This document shows, piece after piece, positions 1-37,861 of a stretch of 37,861 bases of DNA. Every line of letters starts with the position of its first letter. The first letter of the stretch is position 1. The stretch comes from Acidovorax sp. CF316 (GTDB taxonomy: Bacteria > Pseudomonadota > Gammaproteobacteria > Burkholderiales > Burkholderiaceae_C). The stretch is taken from positions 1-37,861 of the forward strand of contig NZ_AKJX01000205.1 of NCBI RefSeq assembly GCF_000276605.1, in the 5' to 3' direction. A program made the position numbers and the translations under genes. The notes beneath the pieces are model-generated. The model ran no database searches. It saw nothing but the letters and a program-made list of their open reading frames with translations, and was not told the DNA's origin.

Positions 1-83
1 GGGTCGCCTTTCTTTTGGGTACTTTTCTTTGGCGAAGCAAAGAACAAGTACCTCGGCCGCCGGGCCGAGACCCGGTCTCCGCC
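1..83 (-). repeat. Boundary repeat, copy A (structured dispersed element)
   Basis: Inverted copy of the element at the other end of the window (37777-37861). Read on the minus strand, it starts GGCGGAG at position 83 and ends GGCGACCC at position 1. It folds into two adjoining hairpins. The first (plus coordinates) pairs 53-58 with 63-68 (TCGGCC/GGCCGA) around a GCCG loop. The second pairs 18-24 with 46-52 (GGTACTT/AAGTACC) and 25-31 with 38-44 (TTCTTTG/CAAAGAA), with a GCGAAG loop and one bulged C at 45. It lies 3' of the cupin gene and could be its transcript end or 3' stabiliser. I recall similar elements as common in Comamonadaceae genomes but cannot check. It may continue outside the window. 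Confidence 0.8.
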
Positions 84-133
84 CTCGACTAAGGCATGCC
101 GCTCACAACAGATCGCACATGCATGCAGGGAAA

Positions 134-568
134 TTACTGCTCTGCAATCACATCCACAAAAACCAGCGGCTCAGTGCCCGTGTTCGTGAGCCCATGTGAT
201 TCGTTCTTGCGCACGATGGTCACATCCCCGGCCTTCACCGGCACATCCTTGCCATCCTTGTCCTTGAAGGTGCCACGGCCCGAAATGATGATGTAGGTGT
301 CCTCGTTCGTCGTGTGCTTGTGGTAGCCGATGGAGTCGCCGGGCTTGAGGGTCAGCCAGCTGATTTCCTTGATCGCCTGGTCCTTCAGGGCCTTGTCGCG
401 CGTGAATGCGTATTCACCGATCAGGGTGCCCTTGCCGCCGCCCGCGGCTTCCTTGTTGACCTTGATGAGTTCTTCCTTGGTGAACACGTCGGCCAGGGCG
501 GGCGTGGCAGCGAAGGACAGGGCCATGGCTGCGCACGCAGCCCATGCAGAGATTGCTTTTGTCGTCAT
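134..568 (-). CDS. Exported single-domain cupin
   Basis: 144 aa. The first 26 residues form a signal peptide (MTTKA start, hydrophobic core, ALA cleavage site before DVFTKEE), so the protein is probably periplasmic. The rest is one cupin barrel. Motif 1 holds the HKH pair followed by a Glu (GYHKHTTNEDTYII). Motif 2 is AGDVTIVRKNESHGLTN and supplies the fourth ligand His, so the His-His-Glu-His metal site looks intact. Function within the superfamily cannot be told from sequence: small exported cupins include isomerases, dioxygenases and simple sensors. The start at 568 has a good Shine-Dalgarno (TGGAGA) 5 nt upstream. It lies 110 bp downstream of the TauE-like gene on the same strand and may be transcribed separately. 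Confidence 0.85.
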   Translation of the reverse strand: MTTKAISAWAACAAMALSFAATPALADVFTKEELIKVNKEAAGGGKGTLIGEYAFTRDKALKDQAIKEISWLTLKPGDSIGYHKHTTNEDTYIIISGRGTFKDKDGKDVPVKAGDVTIVRKNESHGLTNTGTEPLVFVDVIAEQ

Positions 569-35942: not shown

Positions 35943-37726
35943 GCTCCGCCGCCCGCACCCGTGGCGCCCGGGCATGCGCCACGGCGCTGGCCCTGGCGGC
36001 AGCAGCACTGCTGGCAGGCTGCGCGTCGACGCCCGCGCCCACGCATATCGACATCGGCCTCATCGCCTTCAACGACCTGCACGGCAACCTGGAGCCGCCG
36101 CGCATGGCGCTGCAGGTGGCTGCGCCCGATGGCAGCGGCCCGGCGCGCGTGCCCGCGGGCGGCGCGGCCTACATGGCCAGCGCCATCGCGCACCTGAAGA
36201 CCCTCCACAGGCACCATGCGGTGGTGGCGGCCGGCGACATGGTGGGCGCGTCCCCCCTGGTGTCGGCCTTGTTCCTCGACGAGCCGACCATCGAGGCGGT
36301 CAACCGCATGGGCATCGACTTCAATGCCGTGGGCAACCACGAGTTCGACAAGGGCTGGCGCGAGCTGCTGCGCCTGAAGAACGGCGGCTGCGAGAAGCAC
36401 ACCGTGCGCGAGCCCTGCCAGCTCAACCCCGGCTTTCCCGGCACCAACTTCGGCCTGCTGGCGGCCAACACCGCGCACGACGACGGCCGCCCGCTGCTGC
36501 CGCCCACCGGCATCAAGCGCTTCACCGAAGGCGGCGTGACGGTCAGCGTAGGCTTCATCGGCCTGACCCTGCGCGGCACACCCGCCATGGTGGCGCCCGC
36601 CGGCGTGGCCGGCCTGCGCTTTGCGGACGAGGCCGACACGGTCAACGCCCTCATCCCCGGCCTGCGCGCCCAGGGCGCCGACGTGATCGTGGTCATGGTG
36701 CACGAGGGCGGCGAAACCGAGGCCGCCCTGGGCGAGACCAGTTGCAAGGGCCTGAGCGGCGACATCGTGCCCATCCTGGAGCGGCTCGACCCGGCGGTGG
36801 ACGTGGTGGTCTCGGGCCACACGCACCGCTCCTACCTGTGCGACTACGGCACCGTGAACCCCGCGCACCCGCTGCTGCTGACCAGCGCAGGCCAGTACGG
36901 CACGCACGTCACCGACATCAGCCTGCGCGTGGACACCGCCACCCGCCGCGTGGTGCGCAAGAGCGCGCGCCAGGTCATCGTGCAGGGCGAGGGCTTCACC
37001 AGCGGCCCCACCACCTTCGCGGTGGACCAGCGCTTCCCCGTCTTCGCGCGCGATGAGGGCGTGCACGCCATCGTGGAGCGCTACCGCGCCGCTGCCGAGC
37101 CTCAGGCCCAGCGCCCCGCGGGCCGCCTCACGGGCCCGGTCTCGCGCGAGCCCGCACCTTCGCTCGAAACCTCCATGGGCAACCTGATCGCCGACGCACA
37201 ATTGCTCGCGGCCCAGGGCCCGGGCCTTGCCGCCCAGATCTCCTTCATGAACCCCGGCGGCGTGCGCGGCGTGCTGGTGCCCGGGACCGATGGGCAGGTG
37301 CGCTACGGCCAGATGTTCACGGCCCAGCCGTTCGGCAACAGCCTGATGGTGCAGTCCTTCACGGGCGCGCAGGTGAAGGCCATCCTGGAGCAGCAGTTCG
37401 CCAGCGGCACCAACACCGCGCAGAGCCCGCGGGTGCTGTCGGTCTCCAAGGGCTTCACCTACCGCTATGACCTGCGGTTGCCTGCGGGGCAGCGGGTGAG
37501 CGGCGTGTTGCTCAACGGCCAGCCGCTGCGCGCCGATGCGGTCTACCGGGTGGTGGTGAGCAGCTTCCTGGCTACGGGCGGGGATAACTTCACTGTCTTC
37601 ACGCAAGGCGTGGATGGGCTGGGGGCGGGGCAGGATCTGGATGCGTTGGAGGCTTACTTCACTGCGGCTGGCGGGGCTGTGGTGCCGCCGGCTACGGATC
37701 GGATTGTTCGCGTGGATCTGCCCTGA
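35939..37726 (+). CDS. Bifunctional metallophosphatase/5'-nucleotidase lipoprotein, TTG start
   Basis: 595 aa. No ATG or GTG in frame precedes the signal peptide without running into aroC, so I place the start at TTG 35939, in a TTGA overlap with the aroC stop. The signal ends in a lipobox (AAALLAGC), so the enzyme is membrane-anchored in the periplasm. N-terminal calcineurin-like domain: [37 protein letters not shown] and SGHTH, the full two-metal set. C-terminal nucleotidase domain: [27 protein letters not shown], and the substrate-stacking [10 protein letters not shown]. UshA-like: hydrolyses nucleotides or UDP-sugars for salvage. Followed by the boundary repeat 50 bp downstream. Confidence 0.92.
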
Positions 37727-37776
37727 TTTTTCTGTTGTCGGCTTGGGGCTTGTTTGAGCCGCGTGCTTGCATTGAC

Positions 37777-37861
37777 GGCGGAGGCCGGGGTATGCGCCCG
37801 GCGGCGCACCTACTGTTCTTTTGCGTCGCCAAAAGAAAGTAGGCAAAGAAAAGGCGACCCC
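37777..37861 (+). repeat. Boundary repeat, copy B (structured dispersed element)
   Basis: Second copy of the element at 1-83, in inverted orientation. Hairpin 1: TGCGCC (37793-37798) with GGCGCA (37803-37808), CGGC loop. Hairpin 2 abuts it: CCTACT (37809-37814) with AGTAGG (37838-37843), and TTCTTTTG (37816-37823) with CAAAAGAA (37830-37837), CGTCGC loop, one bulged G at 37815. An A-rich linker and GGCGACCCC complete it. The loop GTCGC can also pair with the downstream GCGAC. Like copy A, it lies 3' of a gene in the same sense. It may be a transcript-end element; no T-run follows, so it is not a classical terminator. Confidence 0.8.

Follow-up and report, generated by a model that had tools for sequence, protein, structure and literature searches.

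The described repeats with which the present element is best compared are the REPINs, i.e. REP doublets with a RAYT (Bertels and Rainey 2011, PMC3116915), the GTAG- and CGTC-tagged REPs (Di Nocera 2013, PMC3733652), and the beta-proteobacterial repeat element BRE (PMC3110155). As far as PMC3116915 describes them, REPINs share with the element the inverted pair of palindromic units, the extragenic position, the many copies, the compensatory changes in hairpins and the persistence of populations. The REPIN-type inverted pair is present here in 65 of 78 units of ten closed Acidovorax genomes, which consist of a plus arm followed by a minus arm. The main differences concern length, with about 0.68 kb (median 676 bp) for the element versus a 71-bp spacing of GI doublets in the same article, and architecture, as the arms of the element are arrays of several hairpins and come in two types, whereas REP/REPIN repeats are described in these articles as short and without two distinguishable arms. 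A RAYT gene beside the copies, which is a trait of REPINs as described there, was not found for the element in its own genome. Relative to REP/REPIN repeats, the element stands out in being several times longer, in having two arm types, in its concerted evolution at shared sites and, within Acidovorax, in its orientation with replication, and this one family makes it testable whether such repeats are fork parasites or parts of the chromosome.

The GTAG- and CGTC-tagged REPs are, according to the description in PMC3733652, likewise palindromic, often arranged as inverted dimers, and located mostly downstream of genes, between unidirectional or convergent ORFs, but most of their dimer spacers are 20-100 bp long, unlike in the element. 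The conserved unpaired GTAG/CGTC tag is absent from the element when judged by eye, as the edge of its A/T-rich hairpin is paired and varies (GTAGG, GTCAC, GTACC, GTAAG, GAAGG). The main text of that article contains none of the terms Acidovorax, Comamona-, Delftia, Variovorax, Burkholderiales and betaproteobacteria. By taxonomy, the nearest system is BRE, an intergenic repeat of about 90 bp in Bordetella and Comamonadaceae, including Acidovorax (4 and 1 copies), all copies of which are chromosomal; PMC3110155 describes it as tandem, variable in number and not co-oriented with the replication fork. The element differs from BRE as described there, its arms forming inverted pairs at a set spacing instead of tandem arrays. 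With MITEs, the element shares terminal inverted repeats, since its arms are inverted at both ends. REPs have been described as targets of insertion sequences (PMC1525189), and likewise an IS30-family gene lies between two arms in the genome analysed here, and IS200/IS605 members are described as targeting the lagging-strand template (PMC6006769). No description of the element was found in the open-licence PMC literature, as covered by titles, abstract starts and selected full texts.

Truncated arms in the window and the complete element

The window, i.e. the whole stretch of DNA analysed, is the entire contig C205 (37,861 bp) within the 7.09-Mb, 315-contig genome of Acidovorax sp. CF316 (G000). 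It begins with a repeat copy on the minus strand (copy A, 1-83, read from 83 to 1) and ends with a second one on the plus strand (copy B, 37777-37861), both recognised by BLAST, in which 1-83 (-) and 37777-37860 (+) are 79% identical across all 83 query bases. This fits the approximately 17 substitutions and one indel that the first-pass annotation of the sequence had counted. With copy A as query, 11 matches including itself were obtained at E <= 2.5e-14, of the same arm subtype. In copy A, the GC-rich hairpin H1 (CTCGGCC-CGGC-GGCCGAG; 52-69, minus strand) is identified by sequence, pair counts and the plus-strand fold only, the A/T-rich hairpin H2 (GTACTTGTTCTTTG-CTTCGC-CAAAGAAAAGTAC; 19-51, minus strand) by sequence and by RNAfold on both strands as well as by the inverted repeat 18-33/37-52, and the beginning of a conserved linker (..CAAAAGAAAGGCGACCC; 1-18, minus strand) by alignments of copies. 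Copy B contains on the plus strand H1 (TGCGCC-CGGC-GGCGCA; 37793-37808; sequence, RNAfold and pair counts), H2 (CCTACTGTTCTTTTG-CGTCGC-CAAAAGAAAGTAGG; 37809-37843; sequence, inverted-repeat search and RNAfold), and the conserved linker CAAAGAAAAGGCGACCCC (37844-37861; sequence and arm alignment), where the interior begins. Outside of these positions, the arms probably continue into outer borders at 84-106 (minus strand, GCATGCCTTAGTCGA..) and 37752-37776 (plus strand), and a degenerate version of GCATGCCTTAGTCGA.. is found outside many copies. Each arm is read into by a gene at a distance of 50 bp. On the left, this is a 144-aa gene (134-568, minus strand), whose protein has weak cupin-family matches below cut-off, and on the right a 587-aa gene (35963-37726, plus strand, predicted start codon), whose protein is 5'-nucleotidase-like, also below model cut-offs.

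In gap-corrected alignment rows, a comparison of the window copies shows six pairs with changes on both sides, two of them in the GC-rich hairpin (columns 20/33 and 21/32) and four in the A/T-rich one (columns 35/70, 36/69, 45/62 and 46/61). Six covarying pairs had also been reported in the first-pass annotation, and the counts agree if its second hairpin corresponds to the A/T-rich one. Outermost in the GC hairpin, columns 18/35 form a C-G pair in the left copy, and the right copy has an unpaired A.C there. Folding z-scores of the end copies range from -2.0 to -3.4. In the right copy, H1 and H2 are both present in the minimum-energy fold of the plus strand. Of the hairpins of the left copy, the A/T one belongs to the minimum-energy fold, and the GC one is outcompeted by another hairpin on the minus strand and present only in the plus-strand fold.

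A hand count places 37 of 41 distinct own-genome arm loci (48 loci minus 7 found twice) within 66 bp of a contig end, with the outer border always inside the contig, which implies that the repeat is one half of an inverted structure. The window copies are truncated outer arms of two elements, cut by the contig start and the contig end, and a complete unit has about eight times their length. The element thereby accounts for the frequent breaks of the CF316 draft assembly at one sequence. In ten closed Acidovorax genomes (one or two contigs each), 143 arms form 65 head-to-head pairs (plus then minus) and 13 singles, so that 130 of the 143 arms are used in pairs, and the paired elements measure 349-804 bp, mostly 0.55-0.8 kb. 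Ten genomes from eight other genera of the same family contain 136 arms, corresponding to 44 pairs of 416-839 bp and 48 singles. This plus-then-minus pairing into larger elements rules out the 83-bp repeat as a complete unit. The earlier proposal of an 83-bp REP- or MITE-like unit thus has to be revised, the repeat being the terminal part of a polar element that is about 0.7 kb long.

The element is a mirror array of hairpins with conserved linkers, multi-copy, chromosomal and apparently non-coding. From each end inward, the order is H1 (GC-rich), H2 (A/T-rich), a linker GGCGACCC..TCTGCG, H3, and a linker ACCTGCG. The type-1 arm continues with a three-way junction, in which P4 encloses P5 and P6, and then reaches the centre, beyond which a second arm of a different type follows in mirror order. 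In the arm alignment, the linkers are conserved between variable hairpins, and the hairpin variants are discrete and recur as cassettes across many copies and genomes. The longest ORF has a median length of 156 aa, as compared to 112 aa in simple shuffles, and a reading frame within the element is possible. Two mini-elements were observed in the CF316 genome, one of approximately 96 bp, in which the two H1/H2 subtypes are represented by a single arm each, joined back to back (L011, G000:C173, ~1464-1560), and one of about 240 bp (L057, G000:C135, ~1346-1586); these are probably deletion derivatives.

Local hairpins, covariation and the RNA reading

The complete element L063 folds with -619 kcal/mol (z -36), and for 20 of the 65 elements, the fold is on average more stable than that of simple shuffles by 0.25 kcal/mol per base. 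Covariation was formally counted in 61 of 63 typed type-1 arms (L108 and L132 excluded) over 41 pairs in H2 (helix 1), P4, P5 with its inner stems, and P6, with H1 and H3 excluded. In this alignment, 98.7% of the cells are paired, 18 of the 41 pairs are changed on both sides (shuffled mean 11.3), and the covariation score is 0.241 versus 0.102 in shuffles (0/500 as high) and 0.034-0.067 with slid partners, with the caveat that structure and alignment derive from the same sequences and that relatedness inflates such counts. The 27 further pair types do not exceed the 30.6 of the shuffles, and therefore few variants account for the covariation. It is demonstrated for H2, P5 and P6, and P4 is nearly invariant (1 of 10 pairs changed). 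RNAalifold, which had been proposed as a check, on its own finds both-side changes in 18 of 60 pairs. In the 24 own-genome copies of alignment A1, in which one gap is misplaced in five rows, there are 39 both-side cells versus a shuffled mean of 9.4 (0/500 as high), 8 both-side pairs versus 5.7 (23/500 as high), and 10 further pair types versus 12.1.

What could generate such covariation apart from selection on the fold? Template-switch (quasi-palindrome) correction would make the two sides of a hairpin complementary, the fold being a by-product. The recurring hairpin cassettes, due to which the counts overstate independent events, and the pair types that do not exceed shuffles would be in agreement with this, but the long arms, which constitute the larger palindrome, are not homogenised together, whereas it is the short local stems that are almost completely paired, and we regard an origin without selection as highly improbable. 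In the outer arms (0-86), identity to the own partner is 0.846, to arms in pairs drawn from two elements of the genome 0.840, and among same-type arms 0.872; at positions 86-200, the values are 0.725 for the own partner, 0.727 for arms of different elements and 0.880 for the same type. As arms are no more alike within an element than between elements, a long stem is not maintained per element; the short hairpins are kept, and the two arms of one element are different things. Palindrome correction as the main cause of the covariation is held unlikely on the same grounds. The earlier claim that the fold and not the sequence is kept is thus supported for the local hairpins.

A conserved fold could function in RNA. 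As a structured RNA or 3'-UTR element, the hairpins would act in read-in transcripts, on termination, stability or processing. The very stable fold of L063 and covariation that resembles that of structured RNAs agree with this, and so does the position, as 89 of 124 scored element borders face a gene 3' end at a median distance of 132 bp. However, no Rfam family matches the window (E <= 1), and the element loci L063, L065, L073 and L057 gave no more than three miRNA-like matches, all of them sub-threshold; in 37600-37861, no intrinsic terminator (a GC stem followed by a T run; 0.4 expected) and no promoter-like site was found, and in tandem gene contexts, the orientation of elements follows replication better than transcription (see below). 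A role in RNA therefore appears quite unlikely to us. The original alternatives of a functional RNA or a hairpin-processed mobile element are still the right pair.

Copy number, gene setting and turnover

The model R1, which was built from 24 own-genome copies and whose E-values are rough, has 59 matches in the CF316 genome (96 of 10,383 first-look candidates were scored), which bears out the early statement that the similarity of the two copies exceeds chance. Within the genus, 44 of 47 genomes are positive for it (E <= 0.01), as are 124 of 299 sampled genomes of the family (E <= 1e-4) and 57 of 369 sampled genomes of the class (E <= 1e-5; own genome and two family members included), where the matches are weaker. 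Positive genus genomes that are at least 90% complete have 4 to 81 matches each, and the Acidovorax genome G008 (two contigs) has no R1 match. A copy-number expansion has taken place in part of the genus: G000, G014, G020 and G044 (6.8-7.5 Mb) contain 48-81 arm matches, as compared to at most 29 in the other genus genomes. With element L163 as query, no match was found in 72,556 plasmids or 50,697 phages.

Elements are frequently located between convergent genes, namely 33 of 62 versus 23 of 171 control gaps that neighbour them within the loci (p=4e-9), as determined with a rough GC3-based gene caller and with 12 of 74 elements omitted as no gene was called within 450 bp; a cruder first version of gene calling gave 36 of 74. 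In 57 of the 74 cases, both flanks are common to an element in another genome. Arm identity is 0.859 between paralogues, 0.819 between orthologues and 0.807 between other positions, and out of 148 arms, 76 have their nearest relative within their own genome, 9 in an orthologue and none in their own partner. Arms are thus closer to paralogues than to orthologues, which indicates concerted evolution.

One orthologous site was compared by eye with respect to its neighbours, the left neighbours being checked except in G003 and G023. Full elements are present in G017, G026 and G023, one detected arm with an element-like interior in G003, and a short remnant of fused borders in G012. In G037, G029 and G025, the element is absent next to the same left neighbour, and G016 and G045 have another left neighbour and no element. 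No target duplication was resolved in the comparison of filled and empty sites by eye at one locus, where the intergenic flanks are highly diverged.

Other repeats occur in the vicinity of elements. Beside the query gene, L238 and L244 have another repeat (CAGGCTCAGC..GAACGG type) in the same gap, which once adjoins an element and once is found where the element is missing. A further repeat, AGCTATTGAT..TGTAG, is present in inverted orientation on both sides of an element (L147, ~2381-2600, and the facing flank in L237); it lies just behind gene ends and looks like a separate gene-end repeat.

Direction of the element, replication and mobility

The two types of arms give the element a direction. 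When positions 84-200 were clustered without supervision (k-medoids), the two arms of an element fell into different classes in 62 of 65 cases. When whole elements were scored both ways, every within-genome pair was consistent in orientation, for 186 pairs in Acidovorax and 91 in the other genera. The window copies end before the polarity-bearing part, which in copy A falls past the contig end, and they thus cannot be assigned an arm type. For the replichores, dnaA was mapped and the terminus was assumed to be opposite to it, because a dif-like pattern was found in 0 of 10 genomes. By whole-element scoring, 58 of 65 Acidovorax elements have their type-1 arm on the side of the origin. Typing by regular expressions, which were devised after viewing the labels and for which the unsupervised and whole-element versions serve as checks, gave 56 of 63 with replication (two of the 65 untyped), and the unsupervised classes of the 84-200 window gave 55 of 62. 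Counting each shared locus once, 25 of 26 are oriented with replication (p=8e-7; 23 of 24 by unsupervised classes). When the clustering window was 84-260, 35 of 65 elements were mixed, 31 of these 35 with replication; with 0-84, 9 of 65 were mixed and there was no signal, and UPGMA clustering separated only 2-3 outlying arms. When the replichore was judged from local GC skew, it agreed with orientation in only 41 of 63 cases.

In convergent gene contexts, 30 of 32 elements are oriented with replication. In tandem contexts, 15 of 19 follow replication and 11 of 19 transcription, and transcription as the cause of the orientation is held unlikely on the basis of these 19 contexts. Outside Acidovorax, in ten genomes from eight genera, orientation with replication was found for 24 of 44 elements by the Acidovorax reference, or for 31 of 41 (p=0.066) with the sign left free per genome, and in G194 and G234 the orientation is evenly split. 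Replication bias is a strong feature of the ten Acidovorax genomes and absent or weak in the other genera sampled. In the ten closed Acidovorax genomes, paired elements are missing from about 8% of chromosome length on one side of dnaA and about 12% on the other, as well as from the interval 0.44-0.59 of the circle; single arms do occur closer to dnaA than paired elements.

Such an orientation might be of use to the host. The element could be a chromosomal site that is kept at fixed, replication-oriented positions for a DNA-binding or DNA-structuring protein of the host, with possible roles in nucleoid organisation, fork passage, or the separation of convergent transcription and replication. 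The positions that are common across the genus, the orientation with replication, above all in convergent contexts, the conserved linkers between variable hairpins, and the query element that was not found on plasmids or phages speak in favour of this, but the number of matches varies between 4 and 81 among the positive, at least 90% complete genus genomes, with none in G008, the one examined site is empty in some species, and other genera do not generally show the replication bias. We consider such a site rather unlikely. It is likewise conceivable, though unlikely, that polar, replication-oriented mirror arrays of conserved DNA hairpins, joined by sequence-specific linkers, are a new class of chromosomal element which the cell uses for forks or chromosome structure and which is not a parasite, being placed at fixed intergenic sites between convergent genes and homogenised within each genome.

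The reading to which we give about an even chance is that the element is non-autonomous, REPIN-like mobile DNA. Recognition of the hairpins would take place while the DNA is single-stranded, in the simplest case on one of the template strands at the fork; this would result in an orientation bias and would explain the direction in Acidovorax. Either gene conversion or an enzyme whose gene lies elsewhere may then spread and overwrite the copies, and insertions may survive mainly behind gene 3' ends. The spread in copy number, the empty sites, the homogenisation and the hairpins fit this reading. Against it count that no transposase is linked to the element and that no target duplication was resolved, that the shared positions indicate a longer life than would be expected of a busy transposon, that the one query element had no plasmid or phage match, that the replication bias was not reproduced in the ten genomes of eight other genera, and that pair types do not exceed shuffles, with few variants behind the covariation. 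The RAYT that had been suggested as a target of search did not turn up near the repeat: the CF316 genome has three PF01797 matches, of which two proteins were scanned with NCBIfam and are RAYT-like (80.2 and 70.7 bits, cut-off 80), but within 1.5 kb on either side of the three genes there is no convincing arm, the best match being 26 bp at 81% (E 0.008) on L033.

A transposase gene of another kind was observed in direct contact with arms. At L042 (G000:C122, 1567 to ~2698), an IS30-family transposase gene (ORF 1620-2690, 356 aa; NF033563 at 280.9 bits, cut-off 80) is located exactly between two arms, and at L054 (G000:C208, 1567-1587), the same IS end abuts an arm at the same junction. In total, three arm/IS junctions were found among the loci examined, and none at the other loci. 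The gene between the arms is read as an insertion into an element, and the recurrence of the same IS end at the same junction suggests that this IS30-family IS may target the repeat hairpin.
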